From positions 1-64,000 of the forward strand of contig DUBC01000036.1 in the NCBI GenBank assembly GCA_012960505.1: DNA of 64,000 nucleotides. Reading direction: 5' to 3'. A model generated the notes under the pieces. It was given only the letters and a program-made list of their open reading frames with translations. It ran no database searches and was not told where the DNA came from. The number at the start of each line of letters is the position of its first letter. The first letter of the stretch is position 1. Origin of the DNA: Verrucomicrobiales bacterium. Its GTDB lineage: Bacteria; Verrucomicrobiota; Verrucomicrobiia; Verrucomicrobiales; DEV007. This document shows, in pieces, positions 18,081-44,252 of this stretch. The position numbers and the translations under genes are program-made.

Positions 18081-19009
18081 AAAAATCTATCGTTCTTTTA
18101 TTTGCAGGCCAAGGGGCTCAAGAAGTAGGTATGGGGTGCTCTTTGTCTGAGGCTTATCCTAAGGTTAAAGAAATTATAGCAATGGCAGATGAGGAGTTGG
18201 GTGCTGAACTATCTGAGGTAATGTTTAATGGCCCGAACGATAAACTGATTCAAACTTCATGGTGCCAACCTGCTTTGTATGTGCATGGTTTAGTATGTTG
18301 GGAAATGCTTAAAAAAAAATGCCCTTCTTTGAATCCTGTGGCTGCGGCAGGATTGTCGTTGGGTGAATTTACGGCATATTCAGCAGCAGGATCATTCAGT
18401 TTTTTAGCCGGATTAAAACTGGTGGCGAAGAGGGGGAAATTCATGGATGAGGAGTGTGCTATGACGGATGGATCGATGGCAGCTATCATAGGGGGTGATG
18501 AAGAGTCTGTGCGGAATCTTGCTAAGGAATATGATGTTGATGTGGCAAATTTAAATGCTCCTGGTCAGATAGTGATTTCCGGTTCCCGAGATAATATTCT
18601 TTCTGCTGTCAATAAGGTGAAGGATTTTGGATGCAGAATGGCAAAGGTTCTAGAAGTAGCGGGTGCGTATCACTCTAGATTGATGGCAGAAGCTCAGGAC
18701 AAGTTGGCTCAAGAACTTGAAATCTTTGATATTAATATGCCAAATTTTCCTGTCATATCGAATGTTGAAGCGAAATCTATTGTGGATATCGATTCGATTC
18801 GAGCCTCACTTGAAAGGCAAGTGACTGGATCTGTTCGTTGGTATGAGTCCATGGAATTCATTTTAGATTCGAATCCCGAAGCAACTTTTATTGAATTTAG
18901 TCCAAAGCCTGTTTTGGCAGGATTAATGAACAGGATTAGACGTGAAGTAGAAGTGCTAACGGTGAGTGATCCTGAATCTTTAGAGGAAGTGACAATAGCC
19001 TTATCTTAA
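18077..19009 (+). CDS. fabD: Malonyl-CoA:ACP transacylase
   Basis: Loads malonate onto acyl carrier protein for fatty-acid synthesis. 310 residues starting at GTG, with the opening LLFAGQGAQEVGMG, the nucleophile Ser94 in GLSLGEF and His199 in GAYHSRLM. Length is normal. It is the last gene of the tmk-holB-glycerate kinase-fabD run. The other fab genes are not in the window. Its last four bases overlap the 3' end of the convergent selB gene. Confidence 0.93.
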   Translation: MKKSIVLLFAGQGAQEVGMGCSLSEAYPKVKEIIAMADEELGAELSEVMFNGPNDKLIQTSWCQPALYVHGLVCWEMLKKKCPSLNPVAAAGLSLGEFTAYSAAGSFSFLAGLKLVAKRGKFMDEECAMTDGSMAAIIGGDEESVRNLAKEYDVDVANLNAPGQIVISGSRDNILSAVNKVKDFGCRMAKVLEVAGAYHSRLMAEAQDKLAQELEIFDINMPNFPVISNVEAKSIVDIDSIRASLERQVTGSVRWYESMEFILDSNPEATFIEFSPKPVLAGLMNRIRREVEVLTVSDPESLEEVTIALS

Positions 19010-20925
19010 GGTTGATTGAGTGAGCGTACATTACCTTCGCGTTTTGTGATCCCCTCCTTATCGAGTCGCTCCAAGAATGGGATTACAATTCTCCGAGTCG
19101 TTCCGAGTATCTTGCGAATATCCGCAGCAGTTGATGGCCCATTGGAGCTTATGAACCTTTTTACTTTTTCTACAGAATCTTCAAAATGAGAGGATAGTAG
19201 TATTGCCTTATCGTCTAATTGAATAGCTTCTCCAGTTTCCAAGAGAAATTTTAGTGCGGATGAGTCATCTTCATTTTGTACGAATTCTTTGGGATTAGGT
19301 GGCTCTAGAGGATTTAAATTAAGGGCATCACGTATCCGCTTGCCTGCTAATTGTAATTTGTCGGGGAGTCGTGGGCTATGATCTTTTCTTCGGATTATAG
19401 TTCCACTCCTGATGTATTCGCCGGTTCCGAGAGTCTCAACTAATATTTCAAAGAGCTTAGGGTCAGGTAGGTGCTTTTTCATGAAGCTTCTCAGCATATT
19501 AATATCAATGCCTGGAAGTTCTGGGTGTTTATTGTGAATCGTATCAATCCTTTTCGTGGCAACATCTATCAAATCGAGCCACCATTTTTTTTCAAATATC
19601 CAAGGCCCTGAGTTTATCGCATCTATTTGTTCTAGTGCTTCATTAATATGGGCTTTTGAGAAACATGACTGTGTTAATATTTCAGAAGCGGGAAAGTATT
19701 GATCGCGAGTTATAAGAGATTGAAGAAATGACTTTGCGCAGTTTGTTGATGAGGATCGAGTTTCAAGAAATTCTTTTTGTTCTTGGGACCTATAACTTTG
19801 GCGAGGAGGAGTTGGATCGAGGATAGTTCCTCCGGCAATGGTGAATCGCTTTGACCAGTCTCTTAAGACGAACCGATCGCCTGCGTGTGTGTAAGCTGGT
19901 TTGTCTAATCGGATCTCAGCGAGTGCCTTTTGACCTGGCTCGAGTTCTATATTGTCAAAAAACAATAATTTTCCTGAAATGTTAGAACTGCAATGGTGAA
20001 ATCTAATGCGCTGAGCATGCTTTATCTGTCCAGCTTTAGATTCTCTTTTAATTCTTTCAACTAAAACATGGATGCGACGAGAGGGTGATCCTATTTCCTC
20101 AATTGTGATTGTGTCGCCGCGTTTGACGCCGCTTCTGGATTTGCCTTTTCTGATTTCAACGTCAGGGATGTTGAGCGCTGTTCTCATGCCGGGCAAAGAT
20201 TCAGAAACTTCGTGTTGATGGTTTTGAATTGCACGGATTGTGGTTTCAGATGACTGAGGCTGGATGATTGCTTTTTGCCCCTTTGTGAATTTGCCTCCAG
20301 TCATGGTTCCAGTTATGACTGTTCCTACGCCTTTTGGCGAAAATACTCGGTCCACAGATAGCCTCGGCTTTTGAATGTCAGGAGGAGGAGTAACCTTTTT
20401 AATTTCTTGGATTAAAGCCTCTCGTAATTCTTCAATGCCTTCTCCGATTAGTGCGCAAACAGGAATGATGGGAGCATTTTCGAAGACACTACCCTTTAGT
20501 GACTCTGAAACCATTTCAGATGAAAATTCAATATCTTCAACGGAATCGGATTTAGTTAGAACGACTACGGCGTTACGAACATTTAAGTATGTTAAAACAT
20601 GAAGGTGCTCTTCTGACTGAGGCATCCACCCATCATCGGCAGCCACGACAAACATTGCTACGTCTACAGAGCCTGCTCCGGCAACCATGTTTTTGACGAA
20701 GTCAGCATGACCGGGAACATCAATGAGTCCGAGGCTGTAATTCTTTTTAGGCTCCTCAGAGTCATTTAATAGGAGATGAGCAAATCCAAGATCAATCGTC
20801 ATGCCGCGCGATTGTTCTTCGGGCAATCTGTCGGGATTGGTTCCGCTCAAAGCTTCAATCAGAGTGCTTTTGCCATGATCAATATGCCCAGCAGTCGCAA
20901 CAATGTAATTAGTGGGGGTACTCAT
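19006..20925 (-). CDS. selB: Selenocysteine-specific elongation factor SelB
   Basis: A GTPase that binds selenocysteyl-tRNA and the SECIS hairpin and delivers Sec at UGA. With the start at ATG 20925 the protein is 639 residues: IVATAGHIDHGKST (P-loop, 8-21), RGMTIDLGFA switch I (about 40), DVPGHADFV (about 69), TKSD for guanine (about 123), beta-barrel domains to about 370, and C-terminal winged helices ending in IRKILGTTRRIVIPFLERLD, the RNA-binding end of SelB. I chose 20925 rather than the upstream ATG because the protein then begins right before the G domain and the start overlaps the preceding stop as ATGA. Its presence shows that the organism can decode UGA as Sec. It is coupled to a lipoprotein gene. 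Confidence 0.96.
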   Translation of the reverse strand: MSTPTNYIVATAGHIDHGKSTLIEALSGTNPDRLPEEQSRGMTIDLGFAHLLLNDSEEPKKNYSLGLIDVPGHADFVKNMVAGAGSVDVAMFVVAADDGWMPQSEEHLHVLTYLNVRNAVVVLTKSDSVEDIEFSSEMVSESLKGSVFENAPIIPVCALIGEGIEELREALIQEIKKVTPPPDIQKPRLSVDRVFSPKGVGTVITGTMTGGKFTKGQKAIIQPQSSETTIRAIQNHQHEVSESLPGMRTALNIPDVEIRKGKSRSGVKRGDTITIEEIGSPSRRIHVLVERIKRESKAGQIKHAQRIRFHHCSSNISGKLLFFDNIELEPGQKALAEIRLDKPAYTHAGDRFVLRDWSKRFTIAGGTILDPTPPRQSYRSQEQKEFLETRSSSTNCAKSFLQSLITRDQYFPASEILTQSCFSKAHINEALEQIDAINSGPWIFEKKWWLDLIDVATKRIDTIHNKHPELPGIDINMLRSFMKKHLPDPKLFEILVETLGTGEYIRSGTIIRRKDHSPRLPDKLQLAGKRIRDALNLNPLEPPNPKEFVQNEDDSSALKFLLETGEAIQLDDKAILLSSHFEDSVEKVKRFISSNGPSTAADIRKILGTTRRIVIPFLERLDKEGITKREGNVRSLNQP

Positions 20926-21497
20926 TTCATCTGGGCTTGCCGAATTAAATCGAGGCTCATTGTGCAAGTTGGGCAAGATGTATGCGTTAATTCATTTAGT
21001 TTTCTATTAGTTAAATGCTTGGGCTGATCTGCTGTTTCCTGAGTCCACCAATATGATTTTTTGAAATGTTTGATATATTTTTTCGGATGCCCAAGTATAC
21101 CGTTGCTGAGAAGGATTACATGTAATGATTCGTGTCGTATGAGCCATTCTGGAATGCTTCCATCTGCATGGGCAAAGTATACGGCCGCCACATTATCCGC
21201 TTCTTTCCAAGAAGTGAGGCCTCCTTGAAATTTATTGCGAATCTTAGCTACAGGCATGCCTCTCCAGTCTTCATATTTTGCTGAGATTGGATCATGTACT
21301 TTGATGGTATCACCTTTGAACCTTTTGCCTGTTTTGGTTTCTAGATCTCTGATCTGCCCCTTGATTTGTGAAACGAGCCATTGGTTAGGATTTTCTTTTC
21401 CCTTAGGGGCTGTAAATGTAGGCTCACTGTAGGGGTGATGGCATCCGGAGAGGATGAATGCAATAAATAGACTTAAGAGTGATATTTTTGATGTCAT
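20922..21497 (-). CDS. Unknown lipoprotein with HExxH motif, translationally coupled to selB
   Basis: 191 residues. The N-terminus is a lipoprotein signal with lipobox LSGC (Cys near 19). A zinc-peptidase-like HESLH motif (about 121-125, in WLIRHESLHVILLS) follows, and a C-terminal pair of cysteines is in SCPTCTM (about 176-182). The HExxH plus downstream Cys pair suggest a zinc-binding or small metallopeptidase-like protein outside the cytoplasm, but I do not recognise a family. Its stop overlaps the selB start (ATGA), so the two are co-translated. Whether this has functional meaning for selenium is unknown. Confidence 0.75.
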   Translation of the reverse strand: MTSKISLLSLFIAFILSGCHHPYSEPTFTAPKGKENPNQWLVSQIKGQIRDLETKTGKRFKGDTIKVHDPISAKYEDWRGMPVAKIRNKFQGGLTSWKEADNVAAVYFAHADGSIPEWLIRHESLHVILLSNGILGHPKKYIKHFKKSYWWTQETADQPKHLTNRKLNELTHTSCPTCTMSLDLIRQAQMK

Positions 21498-29790: not shown

Positions 29791-32700
29791 ATGGTGAATT
29801 TGAAAACACATGGCATAATTATAATTTTGATCTGTTGCGGGGGAGCTCTTTGTGCAGCGCCAATCACTTCAGAGCAATTGCAATTTTTCGAATCGAAGGT
29901 CCGACCTCTCTTGGTGGATAACTGCTACAAATGCCATTCCAATAAGGCTGAGAAGTTAAAAGGTGGGCTCTATTTGGACCATGGTACAACTGTAATTTCT
30001 GGAGGAGATTCAGGCCCATCAGTAGTCGCCGGTGATCCGGACAAGAGTCTTTTGATAGAGGCGGTCCGCTATGAAGATCCGGACACACAAATGCCTCCCA
30101 AGAAAAAGTTAATTGATGAAAATATTAAGATCCTTGAAGATTGGGTCTTGATGGGTGCGCCTTGGCCCAATGAGTCATTGCCTGATTCTGAGAAAAAGCT
30201 CGGGCCAAAGGTCTTTGATTTAAATAAGCGAAAGTCAGAGCATTGGTGCTGGCAGCCGATCGCTAAAAGTAATCCTCCTCAAGTCGCTTATAAGGATTGG
30301 TCTTCGGATCCGATCGATCTTCATATTTTGTCAGCACTTGAAAAGGAGGGACTCAAACCTTCTTTGCCGGCGGATAAAAATTCTTTGATGCGGCGTGTCT
30401 ATTTTGATTTGATTGGATTGCCGCCTAGTTCGGATGAAGTTCATGAGTTTTTGAATGATAAATCTGATGATGCTTATGAAAAGTTAGTTGATAAACTCCT
30501 ATCGTCTTCACACTTTGGGGAGCGTTGGGCACGGCATTGGATGGACCTGGTTCGGTACGCTGAGAGTTGTGGGCATGAATTTGATTACCCCATACCATAT
30601 GCAACAGAGTACAGGGATTACCTTATCCGGGCATTCAATGATGATGTCCGGTATGATCAATTTGCAGTTGAGCATATTGCCGGTGATTTGTTAGAGGACC
30701 CAAGAAAGAATCAAAAGGATAACTATAATGAATCGGTCATAGGAACAGGTTTCTGGCATCTCCATGAAGCGACTCATGCTCCTACAAATGTTAGAGGCAA
30801 TGAAGTGGAGAGGATGGACAATCAGATCGATGTTTTCAGTAAAGCCTTTTTGGGGCTCACGGTTTCGTGTGCCCGTTGTCATGATCACATGTTTGATGCT
30901 ATATCCACAAAGGATTATTATGCTCTGGCGGGTTATCTGCAAAGTTCACGCCGTCAGGAGGCTTTCCTTGATCCGGGAGATTCGATAGGATCTAAGATTT
31001 CACAAATAAAGAAACTCAAATTACAGTTGGATAGTATCCCTTTAGATTCTTTTACTAAGAACGTAGCTCCAGATAAGATAGCTCTGTACCTAATGGCTTC
31101 GAAGGATGCGATCAGTGGAGTGCAGCTAAGTGAAGTTTTTAAGAAATATAAAGTTTCAGAATCGACACTGAATCGATGGGTCGAAGCGGTTAAGGATCCT
31201 AAAATTAAGGACCCTGAGCATCCGTTATTTGTTTGGTCGCAGTTCATTGATGCAAATCAAAATTTAACCCCGGGCCTTTTCGATAAGAAAATGGAAACGG
31301 TCAAACGGAGATTAGCGGATCAACAGAAACAGCACCTCGAGTCAACGAAAGACAGCGTCAAGTTCGCAGACTTTTCGGAAAGTAGTTACAAGGAATCTGG
31401 ATGGTTAGTTCAGGGCGAAGCCTTTGAGGATGCGCCAACTAAGCCAGGCGAATGGGTCCAGTCTGATGGTAAAGCGGCCGTTCCTGGACGAGCCAATGGC
31501 GGGAGATTAGGAGGCAAGTTACAGGGAGTCCTTCGTTCCCCAACATTTACAATTTCACATAATCAGATCCACCATCGTCTCGGAGCCAGGAAAGGGGGCC
31601 TTCGTATTCGTGTGATTATAGACGGCTACTATATGGAGCCTTATAACGGGCTCTTATTTGGCGGGACAAGATTGAATGACCCGAACACTGACGGACATAA
31701 TAATTGGATGACTCAAGGAAGGGACTTGAAAATGTATAAGGGTCACAAAGCGCACATTGAATACATTGATCATGGGGACGGTTATTTTGATGTCGATGAG
31801 ATTTGGTTTTCGGACCGCGGAGCGCCTAAGCCCGGAGCTTCCGCTATTGCATATAAAATAGCCTCTAATGATAAGATTCATTCTGTCCAAGACCTTGCCA
31901 TTGCTTACGGATGGCTGTGGAAGCGTTCGATTAATGAGGACTCATCAAAAATAGATGAGGATGGGAGGAAGTTCCTTGCTTGGGGAGTCGCGTGTGGTGT
32001 CGATGATAAAAATGATGCCGATGAATCATTAAGACTAAGAAAAGAAATTTCTAAGCTTTGTGGTGAAGTTCCTGCTCCGCGCAAAGTTCAGGCACTTTGT
32101 GACGGGACCGGAGAAAATGAGTTTGTATTATTACGCGGCAATCATAGAAGGCTCGGAGATAAAGTTCCTAGAAGATTTCTTACTGCGCTAGGCGGAGAGA
32201 AAGAGCAAGCCCCACTAGTAGGTAGTGGACGATTGTCTCTTGCTAGGCAAGTCACTGATATCAATAACCCTTTAACGGCACGAGTATTCGTAAACAGATT
32301 GTGGCACCATTTATTTGGTAGAGGAATCGTTCCGTCTACCGATGATTTTGGAGTCTTAGGAAAGAGACCTTCGAACCCTGATCTGTTAGATCACTTGGCT
32401 TCTTCTTTCATGGGTGATAATTGGTCCATTAAGAGGGCAATAAGAAGAATAGTTCTTACGCAGACTTATCGTCAGTCCAGTTCAACTAATCCCGAGGGCT
32501 CCAAAGCGGATCCTCAGAATATATTTCTTCACAGAGCAAACCTAAAAAGAATTCAAGGTGAGTCTATTCGTGATAGCATTCTCATGGTTTCAGGAAGAAT
32601 AGATAATAAAATTTTCTGCGATGGCGGCTCTGTGCCGATCCATGTGACAGACTTCATGACGGGAAGGGGTCGTCCCCGAGGAGGCCCCCTAGATGGGAAG

Positions 32701-33075
32701 GGGAAGAGAAGTCTTTATGTGTCAGTGAAAAGGAACTTCTTGTCTCCGATGATGCTTGCATTTGATACTCCTGTCCCATTCAGCAGTATGGGCAAAAGGA
32801 CGGTCTCTAATGTTCCGGCTCAGGCACTCATAATGATGAATGATCCGTTCGTTCATGAGCAATCTGTTATATGGGCTAAGAGTTTCACTGATGCTAAATT
32901 AAATACGACTCAGATAGTGGAGCAGATGTACATGAAGGCTTTTTCGAGGGGCCCTAGCGAAAATGAATTAGGTGCAGCTTTGGAATTTCTTGGTGAGGGA
33001 AAAGTGGATGTGCAGAAATTAACAGATTTTGCTCATGTTATTTTTAATACGAAAGAATTTATATTTTTAAGATAA
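29791..33075 (+). CDS. Exported PSCyt1/PSCyt2-PSD1 domain protein
   Basis: A large exported protein typical of PVC bacteria. 1094 residues with a signal peptide (1-22), a cytochrome-like PSCyt1 domain with a covalent haem motif CYKCH (Cys45, Cys48, His49), a DUF1549-type domain (about 170-400, RRVYFDLIGLPPSS), a carbohydrate-binding-like middle part and a DUF1553 C-terminal region (about 815-1094, NPLTARVFVNRLWHHLFGRG). Such proteins are paired with DUF1501 proteins and are linked with exported sugar or polymer oxidation, but the biochemical role is not established. The DUF1501 gene follows 10 bases later. Confidence 0.92.
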   Translation: MVNLKTHGIIIILICCGGALCAAPITSEQLQFFESKVRPLLVDNCYKCHSNKAEKLKGGLYLDHGTTVISGGDSGPSVVAGDPDKSLLIEAVRYEDPDTQMPPKKKLIDENIKILEDWVLMGAPWPNESLPDSEKKLGPKVFDLNKRKSEHWCWQPIAKSNPPQVAYKDWSSDPIDLHILSALEKEGLKPSLPADKNSLMRRVYFDLIGLPPSSDEVHEFLNDKSDDAYEKLVDKLLSSSHFGERWARHWMDLVRYAESCGHEFDYPIPYATEYRDYLIRAFNDDVRYDQFAVEHIAGDLLEDPRKNQKDNYNESVIGTGFWHLHEATHAPTNVRGNEVERMDNQIDVFSKAFLGLTVSCARCHDHMFDAISTKDYYALAGYLQSSRRQEAFLDPGDSIGSKISQIKKLKLQLDSIPLDSFTKNVAPDKIALYLMASKDAISGVQLSEVFKKYKVSESTLNRWVEAVKDPKIKDPEHPLFVWSQFIDANQNLTPGLFDKKMETVKRRLADQQKQHLESTKDSVKFADFSESSYKESGWLVQGEAFEDAPTKPGEWVQSDGKAAVPGRANGGRLGGKLQGVLRSPTFTISHNQIHHRLGARKGGLRIRVIIDGYYMEPYNGLLFGGTRLNDPNTDGHNNWMTQGRDLKMYKGHKAHIEYIDHGDGYFDVDEIWFSDRGAPKPGASAIAYKIASNDKIHSVQDLAIAYGWLWKRSINEDSSKIDEDGRKFLAWGVACGVDDKNDADESLRLRKEISKLCGEVPAPRKVQALCDGTGENEFVLLRGNHRRLGDKVPRRFLTALGGEKEQAPLVGSGRLSLARQVTDINNPLTARVFVNRLWHHLFGRGIVPSTDDFGVLGKRPSNPDLLDHLASSFMGDNWSIKRAIRRIVLTQTYRQSSSTNPEGSKADPQNIFLHRANLKRIQGESIRDSILMVSGRIDNKIFCDGGSVPIHVTDFMTGRGRPRGGPLDGKGKRSLYVSVKRNFLSPMMLAFDTPVPFSSMGKRTVSNVPAQALIMMNDPFVHEQSVIWAKSFTDAKLNTTQIVEQMYMKAFSRGPSENELGAALEFLGEGKVDVQKLTDFAHVIFNTKEFIFLR

Positions 33076-33084
33076 ATTAGACAT

Positions 33085-34503
33085 ATGCATTGCAATAGAT
33101 TTAGACCGCAGCCTTTGAGTCGTAGAGATTTATTAAAGGGTTCAGGAATTGGGTTTGGAGCCTTCGCCTTGGATGCTCTTTTGATGCAAAATGCATCAGC
33201 TTCTAATGGTAAAGGGGTGATAGGCACTCACCATGAAGTGAAGGCGAAGAGTATCATTTTTCTTTACATGGATGGTGGGGTTTCGCATGTGGATTCGTTT
33301 GATCCAAAGCCTTTACTGAAAGAACATAATGGTAAAGATCCGTCTAAGTTCTTTAAGGTAGCTCCGACACAGTTCAATAATAACGGGAAAATTTTAGCAA
33401 GTCCCTGGGGATTTAAGAAGTACGGTAAGAGCGGAATTCCGATCAGTGATCTTTTCCCTAACATAGCTAAGCACGCTGATAAGCTTGCCGTGGTCAGATC
33501 AATGACATCGGAATTCTCTGAGCACACAAATGCTAATTATTTTTTGCACACTGGCAGTGGAGTTCAAGGGCGACCGAGCATGGGTTCATGGGTCACTTAT
33601 GGTCTAGGCAGTGAGAGTAAAGATTTGCCAGGATTTGTTGTAGTGAATGGGGGCCTCACGCCTCCTGGTGGACTTGATAACTTTAATAGTGGTTTTTTGC
33701 CTGCAGCCTATCAAGGATCAGTCTTCAAGCCACAAGCGTCACCGGTCGCGAACATTAAGCGTCGGGAAACTGATTCTAATCATCAGCAAAGGAAGCTCGA
33801 TTTGGTTGCTAAACTCGATAAGGAAATGTCTAATCGTACTGGCGGCCAGGACGCGATCGAGTCAGCTATCAAGAATTATGAGATGGCATTCCGAATGCAG
33901 AGTTCAGTTCCTGAGTTGGCCGATTTATCAAATGAATCGGATTCCATGAAGGAGCTTTACGGGATGAACCATAAGTATGACAAAGCGCGTATTTTTGCAT
34001 CGGAATGTTTGATGGCGCGTAGATTAGTGGAGAGGGGAGTCCGTTTCATTGAGCTGACGTGCCCCAATTGCGGCCATGATAGGTGGGACGCGCACGGGAA
34101 CCTTAAGCGTAATCATGAAGATAACTCGAGGGCAGTCGATCAGCCCATTTCTGCTTTATTGGAGGACCTTGAGCAGCGAGGAATGCTAGAAGAGACTCTA
34201 GTTGTTTGGGCCGGTGAATTTGGTCGGACTCCTTTCGCTCAGGGAAGTAATGGTAGGGACCATCATCCTTTTGCATATTCAATGTGGATGGCTGGAGGAG
34301 GGATCAAGGGAGGGACAGTCTATGGTAAGACCGATGAATTCGGATATCATGTCACTGAAGGTAAGGCTGAAATACATGACCTCCATGCGACGATGTTACA
34401 TCTGCTCGGAGTTGATCATGAGCGTAGTACATATAGATTCAGTGGCAGGGACATGAGGCTAACGGATGTGCATGGCCATGTTCTTCATGATATCATTTCA
34501 TGA
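33085..34503 (+). CDS. Exported DUF1501 protein
   Basis: 472 residues, partner of the preceding PSD1 protein in PVC genomes. A Tat-type signal (SRRDLLKGSGIGFGAF, about 12-27) suggests export of a folded protein. The family body is alkaline-phosphatase/sulfatase-like, with FLYMDGGVSHVDSFDPKP (about 57), MTSEFSEHTNANYFLHTG (about 140), ELTCPNCGHDRWDAHGN (about 320) and WAGEFGRTPFAQG (about 374). The metal-ligand-like Asp and His residues are present. The substrate is unknown. Confidence 0.92.
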   Translation: MHCNRFRPQPLSRRDLLKGSGIGFGAFALDALLMQNASASNGKGVIGTHHEVKAKSIIFLYMDGGVSHVDSFDPKPLLKEHNGKDPSKFFKVAPTQFNNNGKILASPWGFKKYGKSGIPISDLFPNIAKHADKLAVVRSMTSEFSEHTNANYFLHTGSGVQGRPSMGSWVTYGLGSESKDLPGFVVVNGGLTPPGGLDNFNSGFLPAAYQGSVFKPQASPVANIKRRETDSNHQQRKLDLVAKLDKEMSNRTGGQDAIESAIKNYEMAFRMQSSVPELADLSNESDSMKELYGMNHKYDKARIFASECLMARRLVERGVRFIELTCPNCGHDRWDAHGNLKRNHEDNSRAVDQPISALLEDLEQRGMLEETLVVWAGEFGRTPFAQGSNGRDHHPFAYSMWMAGGGIKGGTVYGKTDEFGYHVTEGKAEIHDLHATMLHLLGVDHERSTYRFSGRDMRLTDVHGHVLHDIIS

Positions 34504-35402: not shown

Positions 35403-36881
35403 ATGAAGATTTTCTCAATAATATTATTTATTTCCCCCTTATTTATCATAGCCTCTCAGGCTTCAGATCTAAATGGGTCACGTCCAAACATCATCTTAAT
35501 AATGACTGATGATCAGGGCTATGGTCCTATCGGCGCGAACGGACACCCATGGATTAAAACTCCAAACCTTGATCGCATGCATGGCCAGAGCACTAGGTTT
35601 GAGAGGTTCCTAGTCAGCCCTACCTGTTCACCTACGCGCTCAGCGATAATGGGAGGAAGGCATCCGCTCAAGAATGGAGTCACTCATACCATCCTTGAAA
35701 GGGAAAGAATGTCACTTGGAACAGTGACGGTTGCTCAGCACCTTAAAGAAGCGAAGTACAATACTGGGATATTCGGGAAGTGGCACTTAGGTGATGAGGC
35801 CAAGTACCAACCAAATAATAGAGGCTTTGATGAGGTTTTCATTCATGGTGCTGGGGGAATTGGACAATCCTATGCCTGCAGTTGTGCAGATGCTCCAGGG
35901 AACAAATATTTTGACCCAGTGATTCGTCATAATGGAAAGTTTGTGAAAACCAAAGGGTACTGTACTGATTTGTTTTTCACTGCGGCTCTTGGATGGATAA
36001 AAAAAATGAAAGAAGCGGACGAGCCTTTCTTTGCATACATCACCACGAACGCGCCTCATGGCCCATTCATTGCGCCTCCGAGTAACACCAAACGGTTCAA
36101 GGACATAGGATTTGGTAAAACTCAGGCAGGATTTTACGGAATGATAGAGAACATTGATGAGAACGTGGGGAGGCTCTCAGCACAAATATCTGAGTGGGGA
36201 TTGGATGAAAATACGATGTTAATTTTTATGTCTGATAACGGGATGACAGGTGGAGGCAGTGGCCGGCCCGGGAAAGAAATCGCTAAGGGCTATCCTTTTT
36301 ATAATGCGGGTCAAAAGGGTCTGAAGGGAAGCGTCGAGGAAGGTGGAGTGAGGGTCCCGTTTTTTGTACGCTGGAAAGGGAAAGTTCAGGAAAATAAAAG
36401 CGTTCAAAAAATGGCAGCTCATATAGATATATTTCCGACATTCGCTGAGTTAGCGGGCCTCAAGTTGAATAAAGATTTAAAGAAGCAAGTCGACGGCCGT
36501 AGTCTTCTTCCCCTCATTGAAAATCCTGGAGCGGATTGGGATGATCGATATTTATTTTCTCAGAAAGCACGTTGGAAGACAGGATCAGAACCTAATGATC
36601 ATATGTGGAAAACGTTCTCTGTAAGGAATCAAAGATATCGTCTAGTGGGCGAGGCTCTGTTTGATATGGAAAAGGATCCTGGTCAGAAAGTGAACATTGC
36701 GGAAGAGAAGCCTGGTCTCGTTAAGAAAATGCGAGCTGCATATGAAACTTTCTGGAAAGAGGCTAGACCATTGATGGTTAATGAGAAGGCTCCAATGTCA
36801 CCCGTTAGGCCATACCACGTCTGGTACCGTGAACAAGTGGATGAGGGAGGGATTCCAGTTTGGAACGTTCCCCAGCTTTAG
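35403..36881 (+). CDS. Exported formylglycine sulfatase (second copy)
   Basis: 492 residues with signal peptide (1-20), metal-binding Asp36/Asp37 (IMTDDQGYG) and the maturation motif Cys75-Ser-Pro-Thr-Arg. Other family marks are IFGKWHLGD (about 123) and IFMSDNGMTGGG (about 275). Its active site is of the arylsulfatase type and differs enough from the sulfatase at 8.7-10.1 kb to suggest another sulfated substrate. It is transcribed with the ABC ATPase and precedes the FG-GAP/ASPIC gene. Confidence 0.93.
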   Translation: MKIFSIILFISPLFIIASQASDLNGSRPNIILIMTDDQGYGPIGANGHPWIKTPNLDRMHGQSTRFERFLVSPTCSPTRSAIMGGRHPLKNGVTHTILERERMSLGTVTVAQHLKEAKYNTGIFGKWHLGDEAKYQPNNRGFDEVFIHGAGGIGQSYACSCADAPGNKYFDPVIRHNGKFVKTKGYCTDLFFTAALGWIKKMKEADEPFFAYITTNAPHGPFIAPPSNTKRFKDIGFGKTQAGFYGMIENIDENVGRLSAQISEWGLDENTMLIFMSDNGMTGGGSGRPGKEIAKGYPFYNAGQKGLKGSVEEGGVRVPFFVRWKGKVQENKSVQKMAAHIDIFPTFAELAGLKLNKDLKKQVDGRSLLPLIENPGADWDDRYLFSQKARWKTGSEPNDHMWKTFSVRNQRYRLVGEALFDMEKDPGQKVNIAEEKPGLVKKMRAAYETFWKEARPLMVNEKAPMSPVRPYHVWYREQVDEGGIPVWNVPQL

Positions 36882-36947: not shown

Positions 36948-39900
36948 GTGTCGGTGGTTCGATTTGTCATTCTATTAACTTCATTATATTTATTTCTCGG
37001 TTGTGAGAGTAAATCTAGAAAGAAGACCCTGAGTTCTCCGGTAAGTAATGAACTTGTCGATTTAAATAAGAGAAAGTTCGAAGGAGTTGATAGGAAATTT
37101 TCAGAAGGAGGTTTAGGGATCGCCTTTCACTCTAAATCATCTTCAGTTCGCAATGTTAATTCTTCATGGAGCACTGAAGAGGTCACTGACGAAATAGAGA
37201 GTTCCTTTAGGATGATGTTTTTATCTGCGGACGATGCGGAGAAGCTGATTGGCAATGATTTTCGTGGAATGGAATTGGTCCCTTCTTCTGTGGAAAAAAT
37301 ATTATCAAAGTCCAATGAGGTTTCGATGTGGGAAGGGGCCGACGAGGAACGTCATGTTGGGAAGATAAAGTTCATTCAGTCATTATTAGAATTGCCGAAG
37401 AAGTTCCCTTTGGGCAATTACCTTAAAGTGATCGAGATATCGAGTCAGGGAGGGTCATTTAAGGCTTCGCTCATTGTTGATCATCTTGGTGAGTACAAGG
37501 AGGCTCATGCTGAATGGGTTTGTGAATGGGCTCGACGTTCTGATGGGGAGTTAAAATTACTTAGCTTGGAAAGGGAAAATTATTCGGAGCTAAGATCTGA
37601 TAAGAAGACTCTTTATAATGATTATACTCAGAGGGTCATAGGAGGCACTCCTCATTATGATACTCAGATCAATAAAGGTATTTCTGAGTGGGCGGGCTTA
37701 ATAACCAAGTTCGGCGACATGGCTATGACCGGTCACCATGGTCTGGCTGTTGGAGATGTGAACGGTGATGGCAGAGACGACGTGTTTGTATGTGATGGGG
37801 GCAGTTTACCAAATAGGTTATATGTTCAGAATGAGGATGGGACCGCAATGGAGGCCTCAATGAATGCGGGCATTGATTGGTATGAAGATTCTCGGGCAGC
37901 TCTTCTCTTGGACTTAGATAATGACGGGGACCAGGACCTAGTCGTTGCCACCATAGCTATGATTGTTTTTGCGGAAAATGATGGGAATGGTAAATTCACA
38001 ATCAGAGGAGGCTTTCCTGACGCTCAATATCCTTTCTCTTTAAGTTCATCGGATTTTGATTTGGATGGTGATCTTGACGTGTATGTTTGTATTTATGGGG
38101 AAGGGGACAGGGACTCTGGGTCTAGAGGGTTTGATGAGCGAGCTCCAGTTCCTTTTCACGACGCTAAGAATGGGGGCAAAAATGTTCTCTTAGTTAATCG
38201 TGGGGGATTTTCTTTTACTGATGAAACTGAATCTGTTGGCCTTGGAGTTAATAATGATCGTTGGAGCTTTTCTTCTTCGTGGGAGGATTATGATAATGAT
38301 GGGGATCCGGACCTTTATGTGGCGAATGATTTTGGGCGTAATTGTATGTATAGGAATGAGGGGGGGCATTTCACTGAAGATGCTAAAGGGTTAGGTTTAG
38401 AGAATACTGGTGCAGGGATGTCCGTGTCTTGGGGAGATTATGATAGGGACGGAACTTTTGATCTTTATGTAGGAAACATGTTCTCAGCAGCGGGTAATAG
38501 AGTAGGCAGACAAGATAAATTTGCTCCAGATAGGGACCTTTCTGAAATACAGGAAATGAAGAAAATGTTCCAAGGGAACACTCTTTACCGGGGCACTGAA
38601 GGAGGATTCTCTGATGTGACTAGGAATGCCCGAGTTTCGATGGGTCGATGGGCATGGAGTTCAGGATTTGTAGATATAGATAATGATGGTTGGGAAGATA
38701 TAGTAATTGCAAACGGATACATAACGGGTTGGAATAAGGAAGATGACTTGTGAAGTTTTTTTTGGCGTCAGGTCGTTTCGCCTAGTCCAGTCGATGCAAA
38801 TGATAAAGCTAAGCTTTCAAGGTACTCTGATTCTTGGGGCGAATTAGTTAACGCAGTTCGTGAAGGTGATTCTTGGAGCGGGAGTGAGAGGAATTCTATT
38901 TATGTAAATATGAGTGGGGACAAGTTTGTCGATTTCTCTCATCTTAGTGGTTTGGGTTTAGATGATGATGGGAGGGCATTGGCTGTGTGTGATTGGGACC
39001 GGGACGGAGACCAAGATATTTGGTTCCGTAACCGCAATGCGCCACGATTAAGATTAATGCTGAACGATAGTGCGAATCATCAGAAATCAGTGTCTTTGCG
39101 TCTCGAAGGAGTTCTGTGTAACCGTGATGCGATAGGAGCAAGAGTCACGTTAAAAACGCAGAATGAAATCATGGTCCGCTCCTTGAGAGCAGGTGAAATG
39201 TTTCTTTCCCAATCCACTAAGTGGTTACATTTTGGAATGGATATAAATGAGCGAGTAAAGAGCTTAGTTGTGTCATGGCCGGGAGGCGAAGATGAATCTT
39301 TTTCTGGAGTGAAGAGAGGGGGGCGCTATTTGCTCAAAGAGGGTCAAGGCGAGGCAGCCAATGGTTCCTTTCCTTCATTGGTATCACTGAAACTTGATGC
39401 TGTAGCTATTGAGAAACAAAACTCGTTTAGTGATCATGTGTATTTGCCAGTCGAAGTCCCATTTCCTCGATTATCTTACCGTGCTCCAGATGCAAAAATG
39501 AAGGAGATGAGGATCAATGGGGTCCCTCTATTAGTGACGTTTTGGGACAGTTCGTCTCAGGACAGTTCATCCGAATTGGAGTCATTAGAAGAGGAACGCG
39601 TGAGAATGAATTCTATGGGAATTGATTCATTGGCCTTGTCCGTTGACGGGATTGAAAGAGCAGGTTCGGCCTATGAATTAATAACTAAATCCAAATTCCA
39701 AGGGAATTGGGGATTCATTCCTGAAGACTTTTTTAGTTTAGTCAAGCGCTGGCGAGGAACTCTCTTTGAACGCTCGGCTCAAATAGAATTCCCTTTTTCT
39801 TTGTTGCTTAACGGTAACGGTAACTGTGTTGCGATATATCGGTCCCACGTTTCAGGTGAGATGATTCAGAACATGAGTCGGTTAGCTGCCATGGATGAAC

Positions 39901-40004
39901 TCTCGCGTTGGCACAATGCACCCTTATTACGTGGTAGTTGGTTCACGAATCCGGTCAGCAAAAATTACGTCAGATCGTTTCTCGAGCAGAGAATGAAAAG
40001 ATAA
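36948..40004 (+). CDS. Candidate selenocysteine FG-GAP/ASPIC lipoprotein, UGA read through at codon 602
   Basis: A CRTAC1/UnbV-type exported protein of 1018 residues if the in-frame TGA at 38751-38753 is decoded. It starts at GTG 36948 with a lipobox (FLGC, Cys19). Six Asp-rich calcium-type FG-GAP/VCBS repeats lie before the UGA (GDVNGDGRDD about 269, LDLDNDGDQD 320, DFDLDGDLDV 369, EDYDNDGDPD 446, GDYDRDGTFD 496, DIDNDGWED 576) and one after it (CDWDRDGDQD, 681). The reading across it is NGYITGWNKEDDL-U-SFFWRQVV, which stays like the family and in frame; from the UGA on there is no frame change to 40004. An ASPIC/UnbV domain (about 711-800) and a TlpA-like thioredoxin fold without CxxC (about 855-1010) follow. 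A SECIS-like hairpin sits behind the UGA. It is the last gene of the sulfatase run. A pseudogene would be the alternative explanation. Confidence 0.75.
38751..38782 (+). promoter_or_regulatory. Candidate SECIS with its UGA codon in the FG-GAP/ASPIC mRNA
   Basis: UGA is at 38751-38753. Bases 11-14 after it (GGCG, 38764-38767) pair perfectly with bases 26-29 (CGCC, 38779-38782). The 11-base loop between them contains AGGUCG, with GGU at positions 18-20; A-U and two G-U pairs could extend the stem to a UCG loop. The AGGUC string and its distance closely resemble the E. coli fdhF SECIS loop, where GGU is at positions 19-21. Fit by eye only, no folding energy computed. Confidence 0.65.
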
Positions 40005-40007
40005 TTT

Positions 40008-43000
40008 TTAGAGGCTAATATTGAAACGGAAATAAGTATCTTTTAATGAACTGATCGGGTCCGATGTCCGGACCGTTATGGTTTTGGTTTTCTTGTCATC
40101 GGAAATAGTTTCTGAAATGGTTTCCATTTGTGACTCTGAGTTCCAATCTTTAAGGTCGTGACTCAGTTGTATTTTTATATCTGCATCAGTTGCTTGGATG
40201 TTTTCCGTATAAGTTATTTCTAAAAATTGCTTCCCTGCGACGCTCACTACCTTTGCTCTAGGGTTTGCGAGAGGCTCTACAATATTAGGATTCGTATTGA
40301 ATGCATATTCGATGAGGTTAATGAGGCCATCTGCATCGTTATCACCTAAGTTATCTGTTATTTGATTGGTTTCTCTCCATTCTTTGAACCCTGATGATAC
40401 TGTTGCGTCAGGATAACCGGGCCGGCCTCCATTCACTGCATGTTCTTTCCAGCTCGAAGGTTCATTAGGCGTTTCGCCGGCAAGTACCAATGATGGACCG
40501 GTGCCGTCAGCGGCAATAGGCCATGGGATCTGGTCATTATAAGTAAAATCTACAATATTATTTGTGGTACCATTCTTAACGAATAGTCGCTCGCCATCAT
40601 TGGAAAGGCGGCCAGTGTATTCGCCGGCAATATAAATTTCTGGATCGTTGCCGTACCGAGCTCTGAATGCATTTTCATTACGGACAATGACGATCCTCTG
40701 ATCTGGATTTAGGATTGTATTTTCTGAGAAGATAAAATTGATACCATCTTCGAAATGTATATTTGAAAGGTCTATGGGCGAGGATGCCGTATTTAAAAAT
40801 TCAGCAAATTCGTAATCGTCCCGATCAGCAGATACGTTCATCTCATTTTCGGAGGAGGGTTCTTCTGGGTGATAATGAAGTTCTGTTATTTTGAAATTCG
40901 AAGAATTTGCAGGGACTGACCCTATTGAGAAGAAAGCTTCATTGAGGGCGCTCCATTCTCTATTGCTAGGGTTATAGGCGCGGGTTCGGATCAATGAGGG
41001 GTCATTAAGAATCACAGGTGAGGTGATCCTGCTCCCTACGCTCGTGTCAACTTCTCCCCGCAGAACCAGGTCAAAACTTATGTCGGAGCTGTTAGGAGAT
41101 GAGTTGTGAATTTCCACTGCGATCTGATTGACCCCATCGACAAAGCTAGAGCTTGGAACCTGATATTCATGGTAAATGCGTTCATTCGGAGTGCCTGAGG
41201 TTGAGTAAGTATCATAACCGGCATTTGCTGGAAGATTCTTTGTGCGAATGATCTCTGATCCGTTGGTGTAAACGGCTGCTCCGTCATCATATTTAAGTTT
41301 GATTATGAAAAATGAATAGGATGACGGGTTTGGCAGATCGACGCTAGTGCGGAAGTAGGTAGTGGCATTGCGTTGAGTGCCAGGAGCACCATCAGAATCA
41401 ATGTAGCTAATCAGAGTTGCTTCGTCGCCCTCATTGTATCCAAGTTCTGAGGGGCCTGATGGCCATTGAGAATCATTGAAGTCTCGACCAAACCATGAGG
41501 CACCTTGATCTGAACCGTCATCGAGATATTTCCAAACGTGTCCATTCTTAATGTAATCCTTTGGGATAGGAGCCTTGTCATTGAACGTCGCGGCGATTGC
41601 CTGAGGGTTAATTGATCCGCCTGAAAGTCTTGGGTCAGAGCCGTTCGTTGTATAATAGATTGCCAGAGTATTGGTGCTCATAGTGATGCCGGAACCCTCT
41701 GGTATTGATCCTCCGTGCTGATTGAATACTGGAGAAATTAAATTTGGATACATTCCAGCGCTTCTAAATTTTGCCATCATATTGGCCGTTAGTCTTGGCA
41801 ACTGGTTATTGAGAAGATTGTTTTGATATGCTTCCCAGCTCGTTGGAGAATGGTTAGCTCGTCCGCTACGTACGTTTGTCCATCTGGCAGCTTCTGCCAA
41901 AAATGGCATCTTAACTTCATCGACCCTGCGCTGTAGTCTTGAAGTTAATCGGTCAGGTGTCATTGCGCCATCATTGAAAAAATGTTTATGAATTTGATCA
42001 GCGAGTAAGATTTTGTAATCTGGATCTCCTTCTCTGCGGAAACGGGTCAATGCATTCAGTGGTCCGTTATGATTGACGGGATAGCCAGATGATCGAAGGA
42101 ATCCATCAGCGTCTTTCATAAAGAATTTGAAGGGAATGCCAAGGGGAACTGATCCGACACTACGGAATTCAGACTCAGAATTACCAGAAGTCCATAGCAG
42201 CATAAAATCAATTACATTTGGGATGTCGATGTGATTGGCTGAAGCCGAGAATGGAGAATTTCCATTAATTAAATTCCGAGTCTCTGTCCAATACTTCCCG
42301 CTACCGTCAAATACGACTCCTTGAAGAAATTCGCTCCCTGAATTGTTGGCGTTGATTGCCTCGTAATCTTCTTTGGATCCTCCTAGATACTCTGATGCCA
42401 TTGCGCCGTTCCAACGTTCGCGGAGGTGATACATTCCCCAGTATGTTCCGTTAAGGTAAACATGAACAAATCGTCCATGAGGGGCGATGTGCCCCATTTC
42501 CAGCATCGAGTCATCAGTGAAGCGGTTTGACATGTATGCGCCACGGTCAATCATATCGTGCGAACCTGACCTGAGGTTAATGCTATCAAATTCTTGTGCT
42601 GGAGGCATCTGATTCTCGACTCCCTCATAGATAGGATAACGAAGTTTGGTTGCTCCGTATTCACTTCTGAAATAGATACGGAAATTCTTTTTTGAAAAGT
42701 TTGTGTAGTATCCACCGAAAAGAGTGACGCCAGCATTTTCCTGAAACCCTTCGGTCCCGTCAGGGAAAATCATTTCAATAGATAGGGGCCTCTCCTTCTC
42801 TGTATTGAGTGTGTTTGGGCTTTCAAATGACAATGATATTGATGGTATTGCCTTAAGAGAATCCAACATCAATGGTTTGTATTTAGCATTTTCGGTGATG
42901 GATGTGCTCATGGTCCGCTGTCCTACAACATCGGCAGGAAATACATAGGTATTAGTATCGATATTGGTTGATGAATATCCTGACTTATAAGCGATGGCCC

Positions 43001-44252
43001 TTATGACTGTCGTTTCATTTATTGAAATTGGAGAGTTATATACGGTCCCTTCAGTTTTGCTTGGGGCCGTACCGTCCAGAGTGTATCTAATCTTAGCGTC
43101 TTCGGTTTTCGTGCTTATTTCGAGCTCAAAAGGATCTTCATAAAACCCTCTGTTCACATTGAATTTTGTGTCACCGACTAGTCCGTCTATACGTTTGCCG
43201 TTTATGGTTCCAGGCGTTGGATCTAAAAAGTAGCCGTTCTGAGGAGAATTCAGATCTGTTTTTCTTGCTGTGAGTTCCGGAGAGATGAGGAAGTCAGAGC
43301 TACTTTGAGAACCGTTCAATCCTTGTATTGCAAGTATGTTCTGACCTTTCTGCAGGGGCCCTGAAACAGAATATTCAAAGAATGTAATTGCATCATTTTC
43401 GTTAGATCGATTTGAAGTGGATGAGGAATTCCATTCTGGATCATCAGGTGCGCTAATTGAATGTATTTTTTTACCATTAAGATACGCAGCGAATCCGTCT
43501 TCCCATTTCATCCATAAAGTGAGATTACTTATTCCGCTAGCGTCAGTTAAATTGAAGGGGATTCTAATATAGATTGAAGCATTAATGCCCCGCATGACAG
43601 ATTTAACGTCACTCCCGTCTCCGATGTGTGGGATGTATTTTGTTGAGTTGTCATAACCGATGCCGGTTTTCCCAGAAGACCAAGACGCATCGTCGAATGT
43701 CGTTTCTGTCCATCCATCAATTGGGGCGAACGGAACGTGCCATTTTGCGTCACCGCCTTCGGTCAGAAACTTTACATCTCTAGGCTCTCCGTAACCGCTT
43801 CCGAATGAGACGTCTTCGTATTGCCGGGGATAGCTATTGAACTCGCTTGCTATAGTGACTCCGTCTGGTTTGATTAGGGCTAAGAAATCTCCATTTGATG
43901 AACTTAGCTTGAAGTTGGTGTGAAGATCATTGTTTGGATCTTTCAGGTCCTTGCCTGAAGCAAATACCAGAATGAACCCATCATCATTGAATTCTTTTTT
44001 GGGGAACGTCCACTTAGTTAAATTGAGTGGATCATCTGTCAGATGGTAACCTTCGAGGTCTCCGTTTTCTCTGTTAACGTTTGAAATTTCAATCCAGTCA
44101 TAATTTTGACCGTTACTGTCCTCTAGGCCCTTATTATTATTTGTAAGAAATTCACTTATTACTGCCGTCTGAACGGGTTCTGCCTGTAGTTGAATGTTAA
44201 ATAAATAAAAAGATAAGACTCCAAAATATATGAATTTTGATGATAGCGGCAT
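40008..44252 (-). CDS. Giant secreted CotH/lamin-tail-domain protein
   Basis: 1414 residues, secreted (signal peptide 1-24). Domains in order: lamin tail domain (about 28-150, ISEFLTNNNKGLEDSNG), a jelly-roll carbohydrate-binding-like domain (about 165-330), chitobiase-C-terminal/Fn3-like repeat (about 380-440, IRYTLDGTAPSKTEGTVY), CotH-kinase domain (about 470-800, with KKNFRIYFRSEYG and WGMYHLRERWNG), a second chitobiase-like unit (about 880-900), a second jelly roll (about 930-1100), a second lamin tail (about 1130-1270) and a C-terminal NDADGLINLIEYAF motif. Such proteins are common in PVC and Bacteroidetes, probably surface or matrix proteins; CotH phosphorylates protein substrates in Bacillus spore coats. 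It is convergent with the FG-GAP/ASPIC gene. Confidence 0.9.
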   Translation of the reverse strand: MPLSSKFIYFGVLSFYLFNIQLQAEPVQTAVISEFLTNNNKGLEDSNGQNYDWIEISNVNRENGDLEGYHLTDDPLNLTKWTFPKKEFNDDGFILVFASGKDLKDPNNDLHTNFKLSSSNGDFLALIKPDGVTIASEFNSYPRQYEDVSFGSGYGEPRDVKFLTEGGDAKWHVPFAPIDGWTETTFDDASWSSGKTGIGYDNSTKYIPHIGDGSDVKSVMRGINASIYIRIPFNLTDASGISNLTLWMKWEDGFAAYLNGKKIHSISAPDDPEWNSSSTSNRSNENDAITFFEYSVSGPLQKGQNILAIQGLNGSQSSSDFLISPELTARKTDLNSPQNGYFLDPTPGTINGKRIDGLVGDTKFNVNRGFYEDPFELEISTKTEDAKIRYTLDGTAPSKTEGTVYNSPISINETTVIRAIAYKSGYSSTNIDTNTYVFPADVVGQRTMSTSITENAKYKPLMLDSLKAIPSISLSFESPNTLNTEKERPLSIEMIFPDGTEGFQENAGVTLFGGYYTNFSKKNFRIYFRSEYGATKLRYPIYEGVENQMPPAQEFDSINLRSGSHDMIDRGAYMSNRFTDDSMLEMGHIAPHGRFVHVYLNGTYWGMYHLRERWNGAMASEYLGGSKEDYEAINANNSGSEFLQGVVFDGSGKYWTETRNLINGNSPFSASANHIDIPNVIDFMLLWTSGNSESEFRSVGSVPLGIPFKFFMKDADGFLRSSGYPVNHNGPLNALTRFRREGDPDYKILLADQIHKHFFNDGAMTPDRLTSRLQRRVDEVKMPFLAEAARWTNVRSGRANHSPTSWEAYQNNLLNNQLPRLTANMMAKFRSAGMYPNLISPVFNQHGGSIPEGSGITMSTNTLAIYYTTNGSDPRLSGGSINPQAIAATFNDKAPIPKDYIKNGHVWKYLDDGSDQGASWFGRDFNDSQWPSGPSELGYNEGDEATLISYIDSDGAPGTQRNATTYFRTSVDLPNPSSYSFFIIKLKYDDGAAVYTNGSEIIRTKNLPANAGYDTYSTSGTPNERIYHEYQVPSSSFVDGVNQIAVEIHNSSPNSSDISFDLVLRGEVDTSVGSRITSPVILNDPSLIRTRAYNPSNREWSALNEAFFSIGSVPANSSNFKITELHYHPEEPSSENEMNVSADRDDYEFAEFLNTASSPIDLSNIHFEDGINFIFSENTILNPDQRIVIVRNENAFRARYGNDPEIYIAGEYTGRLSNDGERLFVKNGTTNNIVDFTYNDQIPWPIAADGTGPSLVLAGETPNEPSSWKEHAVNGGRPGYPDATVSSGFKEWRETNQITDNLGDNDADGLINLIEYAFNTNPNIVEPLANPRAKVVSVAGKQFLEITYTENIQATDADIKIQLSHDLKDWNSESQMETISETISDDKKTKTITVRTSDPISSLKDTYFRFNISL

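Follow-up and report, generated by a model that had tools for sequence, protein, structure and literature searches.

Prokaryotic selenoproteins were catalogued in 2026 as 119 families, those annotated in GenBank included (PMC13188914, Table 1), and bacterial SECIS elements are described there as stem-loops with a G in the first loop positions, located 16-37 nt after the UGA. For the Planctomycetes, selenoproteins were reported in P1 and P2 in a 2016 paper whose main text names no FG-GAP/ASPIC/CRTAC1-type domains (PMC4807772). Furthermore, the search tool deep-Sep keeps candidates only if they have a known selenocysteine (Sec) homologue or Cys homologues among their top matches (PMC12013277).

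Here, we analyzed a gene for an exported FG-GAP/ASPIC protein with an in-frame UGA, located in a window of 64,000 nucleotides (the whole stretch of DNA under study, from a Verrucomicrobiales bacterium), together with its relatives in other genomes. An earlier note on this DNA had stated that the FG-GAP/ASPIC family is not known to include a described selenoprotein. In agreement with this, no FG-GAP, ASPIC, or CRTAC1 family is listed among the 119 families of the catalogue, no NCBIfam model (selenoprotein models included) matched over its cut-off, PADLOC returned no family name, and the searchable full texts contained no report combining FG-GAP with selenocysteine or ASPIC, UnbV, or CRTAC1 with selenoprotein. 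We could not find the family described, and it may be new, judging from the openly searchable full texts that were covered.

Architecture of the window gene

As the earlier note had stated, the gene runs from its GTG to its TAA in one frame, without frameshift and with a TGA at codon 602 as the sole internal stop; with UGA602 read, the product has 1018 residues (Table 1). The sequence is family-like on both sides of this codon, and Pfam matches over their cut-offs (129.4, 66, and 48.4 bits) place FG-GAP repeats before it and UnbV_ASPIC after it. Judging from its N-terminus, the product is probably a lipoprotein.

Table 1. Features of the window gene and the selB gene in the window.
Feature	Coordinates	Strand	Basis
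Exported FG-GAP/ASPIC protein gene, 1018 residues with UGA602 as Sec	36948..40004	+	One frame, single internal TGA; Pfam FG-GAP_3, FG-GAP, UnbV_ASPIC
Probable signal peptide and lipobox (LFLGC, Cys19)	36948..37004	+	Read off the sequence; conserved in L009
UGA codon 602, proposed selenocysteine	38751..38753	+	TGA in 92/92 alignable homologues; opposite Cys of same-genome paralogue L119
Bacterial SECIS-like hairpin, loop GGUCG from 17 nt after UGA, two mismatched pairs in window copy	38764..38782	+	Family hairpin; model R1 match
FG-GAP beta-propeller with proposed Sec-bearing helical insert (residues about 583-640)	37680..39062	+	Pfam; AlphaFold2; CRTAC1 structure match
UnbV_ASPIC domain, residues 728-793	39129..39326	+	Pfam 48.4 bits, cut-off 23.4
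Degenerate TlpA/ResA-like thioredoxin domain	39465..40001	+	CxxC in 82/85 aligned members, absent in window copy; family profile; typical-member fold
selB, Sec-specific elongation factor	19006..20976	-	TIGR00475 324.6 bits, cut-off 242.25

Conservation of the UGA codon

In the genome to which the window belongs, a search identified ten homologues, each of them interrupted by a single in-frame stop that is always a TGA, which places the in-frame TGA far from chance. A class-wide search around the window, in a sample consisting mostly of other genera, found the family in this genome alone. A scan of GTDB contigs revealed 79 family loci in Verrucomicrobiota, Planctomycetota, Lentisphaerota, and Acidobacteriota. 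The earlier note had proposed aligning homologues at the UGA. When this was done, TGA was found at codon 602 in 92 of 92 alignable homologues, the paralogues of this genome included; the remaining two of the 94 matches belong to different FG-GAP proteins that lack the motif. A Cys was found at the site in the distant paralogue L119. The site itself is characterized by the motif DLUSxxWRxV, flanked as in NG[FY][ILV][TS]...DLUS[FV][FY]WRQVVS, and the same UGA codon, together with the RNA signal described below, recurs in related genes that number well over 100 and are spread across several bacterial phyla.

The family is also multicopy elsewhere, with at least 14 UGA-bearing members in one Planctomycetota genome (G150, the genome of L018). 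A second, shorter subfamily, represented by two paralogues of this genome (L117, G000 C11, and L118, G000 C13) and by L085 (176-2992), retains DLUSxxWRAVV; in L118 and L085, the hairpin closes one base earlier, with a GGUC tetraloop.

With respect to family relatives that lack the UGA, paralogue L119 of this genome reads DYCTRFW where the family has DLUSFFW, and BLASTP of the window protein against L119 (537 residues, E 4e-40) places its Cys exactly opposite residue 602. The same Cys occurs in L123, whose genome (G412) is absent from the set with a SelB match. The nearer non-UGA paralogues carry Glu, Ala, Asp, Asn, Gln, or Arg at the site, not Cys, and the usual Sec/Cys exchange is therefore confined to the distant DYC paralogues. 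Thus, the Cys that the earlier note had named as possible support for Sec is present in L119 and L123 but does not extend to the closest non-Sec paralogues, which carry Glu or Ala; for this reason, deep-Sep would tend to discard the family. In the Planctomycetota paralogues L160-L174 and L176-L178, Sec is replaced by Glu, Ala, Asp, Asn, or Gln, and none of them has a CxxC; two of these paralogues lie close together on C458 of G642.

The RNA hairpin downstream of the UGA

The family hairpin consists of a six-pair stem and the loop GGUCG, located exactly 17 nt after the UGA, and its stem is fully paired in 60 of 75 distinct sequences. Both sides of the stem vary at three pairs, and the alternation between WRQVV and WRRVA in the protein exactly matches an A-U/G-C alternation in the stem. 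The covariation score of 0.226 was above that of every slid register and compares with 0.126 after shuffling, where none of 500 shuffles reached it. Furthermore, mean pairing amounted to 5.72 of 6 pairs, as opposed to 3.51 +/- 0.11 when synonymous codons were redrawn by the genes' own usage, and the hairpin energy was -9.0, compared to -4.35 +/- 0.22 under the same synonymous-codon null. Since redrawing synonymous codons weakens the hairpin, protein conservation is not its explanation. A fully paired hairpin was present in 102 of 119 UGA genes but in only 1 of 18 non-UGA paralogues. At the family level, the element therefore has the traits of a bacterial SECIS: its GGUCG loop lies at 17 nt, its stem covaries, and its codons are constrained.

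No Rfam family was found at the UGA site or anywhere else in the window, and a family-specific hairpin model (R1) was therefore built, leaving out the window clade. Across the window, this model ranks the UGA site first, with 28.7 bits (E 1.8e-5), a score that derives partly from conserved coding sequence.

In its own sequence, the window hairpin is atypical. In the family register, it forms 4 of 6 pairs, the other two positions being mismatched (U.U and C.U), and folds at -5.3 kcal/mol, which makes it among the weakest SECIS of the family. The hairpins of L009 and L011 resemble it (4 of 6 pairs, about -5 kcal/mol), whereas that of the more distant L010 is fully paired (-10.0 kcal/mol). The window hairpin did not exceed its own synonymous null (p 0.33), and it misses the -7.5 kcal/mol limit of the published bSECIS prediction model, which is known to miss atypical elements (PMC13188914). 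This limit is no defining trait, and missing it lowers confidence in the window copy, not in the family. The GGCG/CGCC stem proposed in the earlier note is thus real, albeit weaker than implied, and the spacing, which had been equated with that of Escherichia coli fdhF, was nearly right: counted from the UGA, GGUC begins at 18 nt in fdhF and at 17 nt in the window gene.

Selenocysteine machinery and genomic context

This genome encodes a complete Sec machinery, with SelA, SelB, SelD, and tRNA-Sec all above their respective cut-offs; the tRNA-Sec (61.2 bits, cut-off 47) lies about 1.5 kb from SelA, and the presence of SelB within the window had been correctly noted before (Table 1). The SelD gene (L125, G000 C2:143520-144446) is a selenoprotein gene as well, with an in-frame UGA in the context SKTCG-U-AAKIDPVG, and this UGA is followed by a GGUC motif at the same 17 nt spacing as in the family hairpin.

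The family tracks SelB across genomes. In raw counts that ignore relatedness and include many incomplete genomes, the 49 genomes reached via family loci had SelB over cut-off in 41 cases, tRNA-Sec in 41, and at least one of them in 45, compared to a SelB background of 14 of 289 genomes in the phylum of the window; likewise, 59 of 294 evenly drawn Planctomycetota genomes carried the family, and SelB was found in 58 of these 59 but in 172 of the 294 overall (Fisher 1e-14).

A comparison of neighbors across the 79 loci revealed no conserved operon; shared neighbors were limited to CotH-like, DUF1501/PSCyt, and sulfatase genes that recur in a scattered fashion, and the genomic context therefore gave no function. 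Sulfatase genes adjoin both the window gene (35403-36881) and the Cys-form paralogue (L119:479-1852). On the opposite strand, a large CotH/lamin-tail-like exported protein is encoded at 40008-44252 of the window, with related ORFs near the family in about eleven loci. Moreover, the window contains, upstream of an ABC ATPase gene, a PSCyt1/PSCyt2/PSD1 and DUF1501 gene pair (29791-34503), a pair that is typical of planctomycete-type bacteria.

Predicted structure and the thioredoxin domain

In the AlphaFold2 models of a typical member (pLDDT 88, pTM 0.91) and of the window copy (pLDDT 88, pTM 0.90), a short helix begins at the proposed Sec. With Z 40.7 and an rmsd of 2.3 over 453 residues, the propeller matches that of murine CRTAC1 (PDB 9etn_A); against a viral structure library, only weak partial matches were obtained. 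In the typical member L014, the C-terminus matches the TlpA and ResA fold, as does the family profile, and TPR repeats sometimes follow this thioredoxin domain. While the earlier note was right about the FG-GAP/ASPIC architecture, it missed this C-terminal domain as well as the loss of its CxxC in the window copy, which reads SQDS, without Cys, at the corresponding position (residues 870-873, 39555-39566).

The thioredoxin CxxC was found in 115 of 119 UGA genes, the 4 exceptions constituting the window clade, and in 0 of 18 non-UGA genes. The latter keep the thioredoxin-like domain with its cysteines gone, and their Sec site is occupied by Glu, Ala, Asp, Asn, or Gln. On a quick tree (approximate and with uncertain root), the non-UGA rows require at least three changes, and the association between UGA and CxxC is therefore unlikely to reflect a single event. 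This co-occurrence suggests a built-in redox relay, for which the simplest reading would be that the CxxC reduces Sec. However, since the thioredoxin domain is missing from the two short UGA paralogues of this genome (L117 and L118), reduction by a partner in trans must be possible as well.

Besides the CxxC, which is missing in all four of its members, the window clade lost Cys650, a residue kept in 67 of 85 aligned members. Nevertheless, the sequence downstream of the UGA is constrained, with dN/dS values of 0.12-0.22, of which those for the window gene against its relatives are 0.12-0.17 (upstream 0.09-0.12). Codons 603-654, a stretch of 52 codons beyond the reach of any start codon, are under purifying selection.

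Discussion

The conserved UGA, the Sec machinery, the RNA signal, selection, protein architecture, and the co-occurrence of UGA and CxxC form the sequence basis from which we infer Sec insertion, redox activity, the relay, and the substrate alike. For the family as a whole, decoding as Sec appears close to certain. The window gene, in turn, is very likely a member of this large family of exported selenoproteins in which UGA602 would be decoded as Sec by SelB via the hairpin. The earlier note's proposal of Sec in an exported CRTAC1-like lipoprotein is the best-supported reading, backed by the conserved UGA, the machinery, the covarying hairpin, the Cys homologue, and downstream selection.

We propose that SelB, guided by the hairpin whose GGUCG loop begins 17 nt after the codon, decodes UGA602 as selenocysteine. 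A helix that is inserted into a probably Ca-binding FG-GAP propeller of the CRTAC1 fold would thus begin with Sec. In typical members, Sec would carry out redox chemistry on an exported substrate, and the reductant that restores it would come from the same chain, namely the CxxC of the C-terminal TlpA/ResA-like thioredoxin domain; such a relay with the fused domain is the reading that we moderately favor for these members. The window clade has kept the UGA and lost the CxxC, and its Sec would therefore need a partner in trans; its weaker SECIS may also lower insertion.

At the protein level, an in-frame TGA amid continuous homology would look identical if UGA602 were read through by a near-cognate tRNA, e.g., for Trp, without SelB, or if UGA were reassigned in this organism. 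However, the family tracks SelB, a covarying hairpin lies at SECIS spacing, and relatives have Cys, Glu, or Ala at the site but never Trp, which renders this explanation highly improbable. A change of the genetic code was rejected, since, among the 42 non-overlapping window ORFs with a length of 200 aa or more, TGA terminates 8 and is thus an ordinary stop. Breaks of this kind do come from single-base errors and young pseudogenes, yet ten paralogues share the codon, as do dozens of genomes that were assembled independently, and purifying selection acts on both sides of the TGA. A sequencing error, or a pseudogene with a nonsense mutation, therefore has a practically negligible probability.

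The alternative that deserves the most attention accepts the selenoprotein family as genuine and regards the window copy as decaying, with UGA602 mostly stopping translation to give a truncated product of 601 residues. The reduced pairing of the hairpins in the window gene, L009, and L011 relative to L010 would fit such a decay, as would the loss of CxxC and Cys650 in the window clade. On the other hand, the window gene remains under downstream constraint when compared to its relatives, codons 603-654 are conserved though they have no start codon of their own, neither a frameshift nor a second stop occurs in four species, and the altered hairpin is identical across three species. Decay is therefore unlikely, although clearly less so than the other alternatives. 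In the window copy, reading of the UGA probably continues, perhaps with lower efficiency, and we consider its decoding as Sec likely, with less confidence than for the family as a whole.

If the Sec reading is true, a large selenoprotein family on an unlisted scaffold would be added to the 119 catalogued ones, which would help to explain why many Planctomycetota and Verrucomicrobiota keep the Sec machinery. Current finders can miss the family because they require close Cys or known Sec homologues, and its genes are annotated as truncated or as pseudogenes wherever the UGA is taken as a stop. Moreover, the chemistry can be tested directly through the association of Sec with the CxxC in a fused thioredoxin domain. 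Going further, it seems marginally favored that these proteins are exported selenoenzymes built on a beta-propeller and equipped with their own thioredoxin reductant, performing Sec chemistry outside the thioredoxin fold, present in multiple copies (ten genes here and, in one Planctomycetota genome, at least fourteen), and possibly constituting the main selenium user in many marine Planctomycetota and Verrucomicrobiota.

Comparison with known systems

The Cys-form DYC paralogues L119 (of this genome) and L123 are homologous to the family across about 540 residues and have Cys at the Sec site, but they differ by the lack of a thioredoxin domain, the motif DYCxxFW, and an identity of about 27%. 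CRTAC1 and other proteins combining FG-GAP_3 and UnbV_ASPIC (PF13517, PF07593; murine CRTAC1, 9etn) share the domain content and the propeller fold, whereas the helical insert with the proposed Sec and the C-terminal thioredoxin domain are extra; no CRTAC1 member was found described as a selenoprotein. With the TlpA/ResA/DsbE oxidoreductases, typical family members have in common the C-terminal fold and the WASWCxPC motif, although here the domain is fused to a propeller with the proposed Sec and has lost its CxxC in the window clade. Finally, the catalogued bacterial selenoproteins, many of which are thioredoxin-like or thioredoxin-linked, use the same SelB/SECIS mechanism that is proposed here, but in this family the Sec would reside in a propeller insert and not in a thioredoxin fold.
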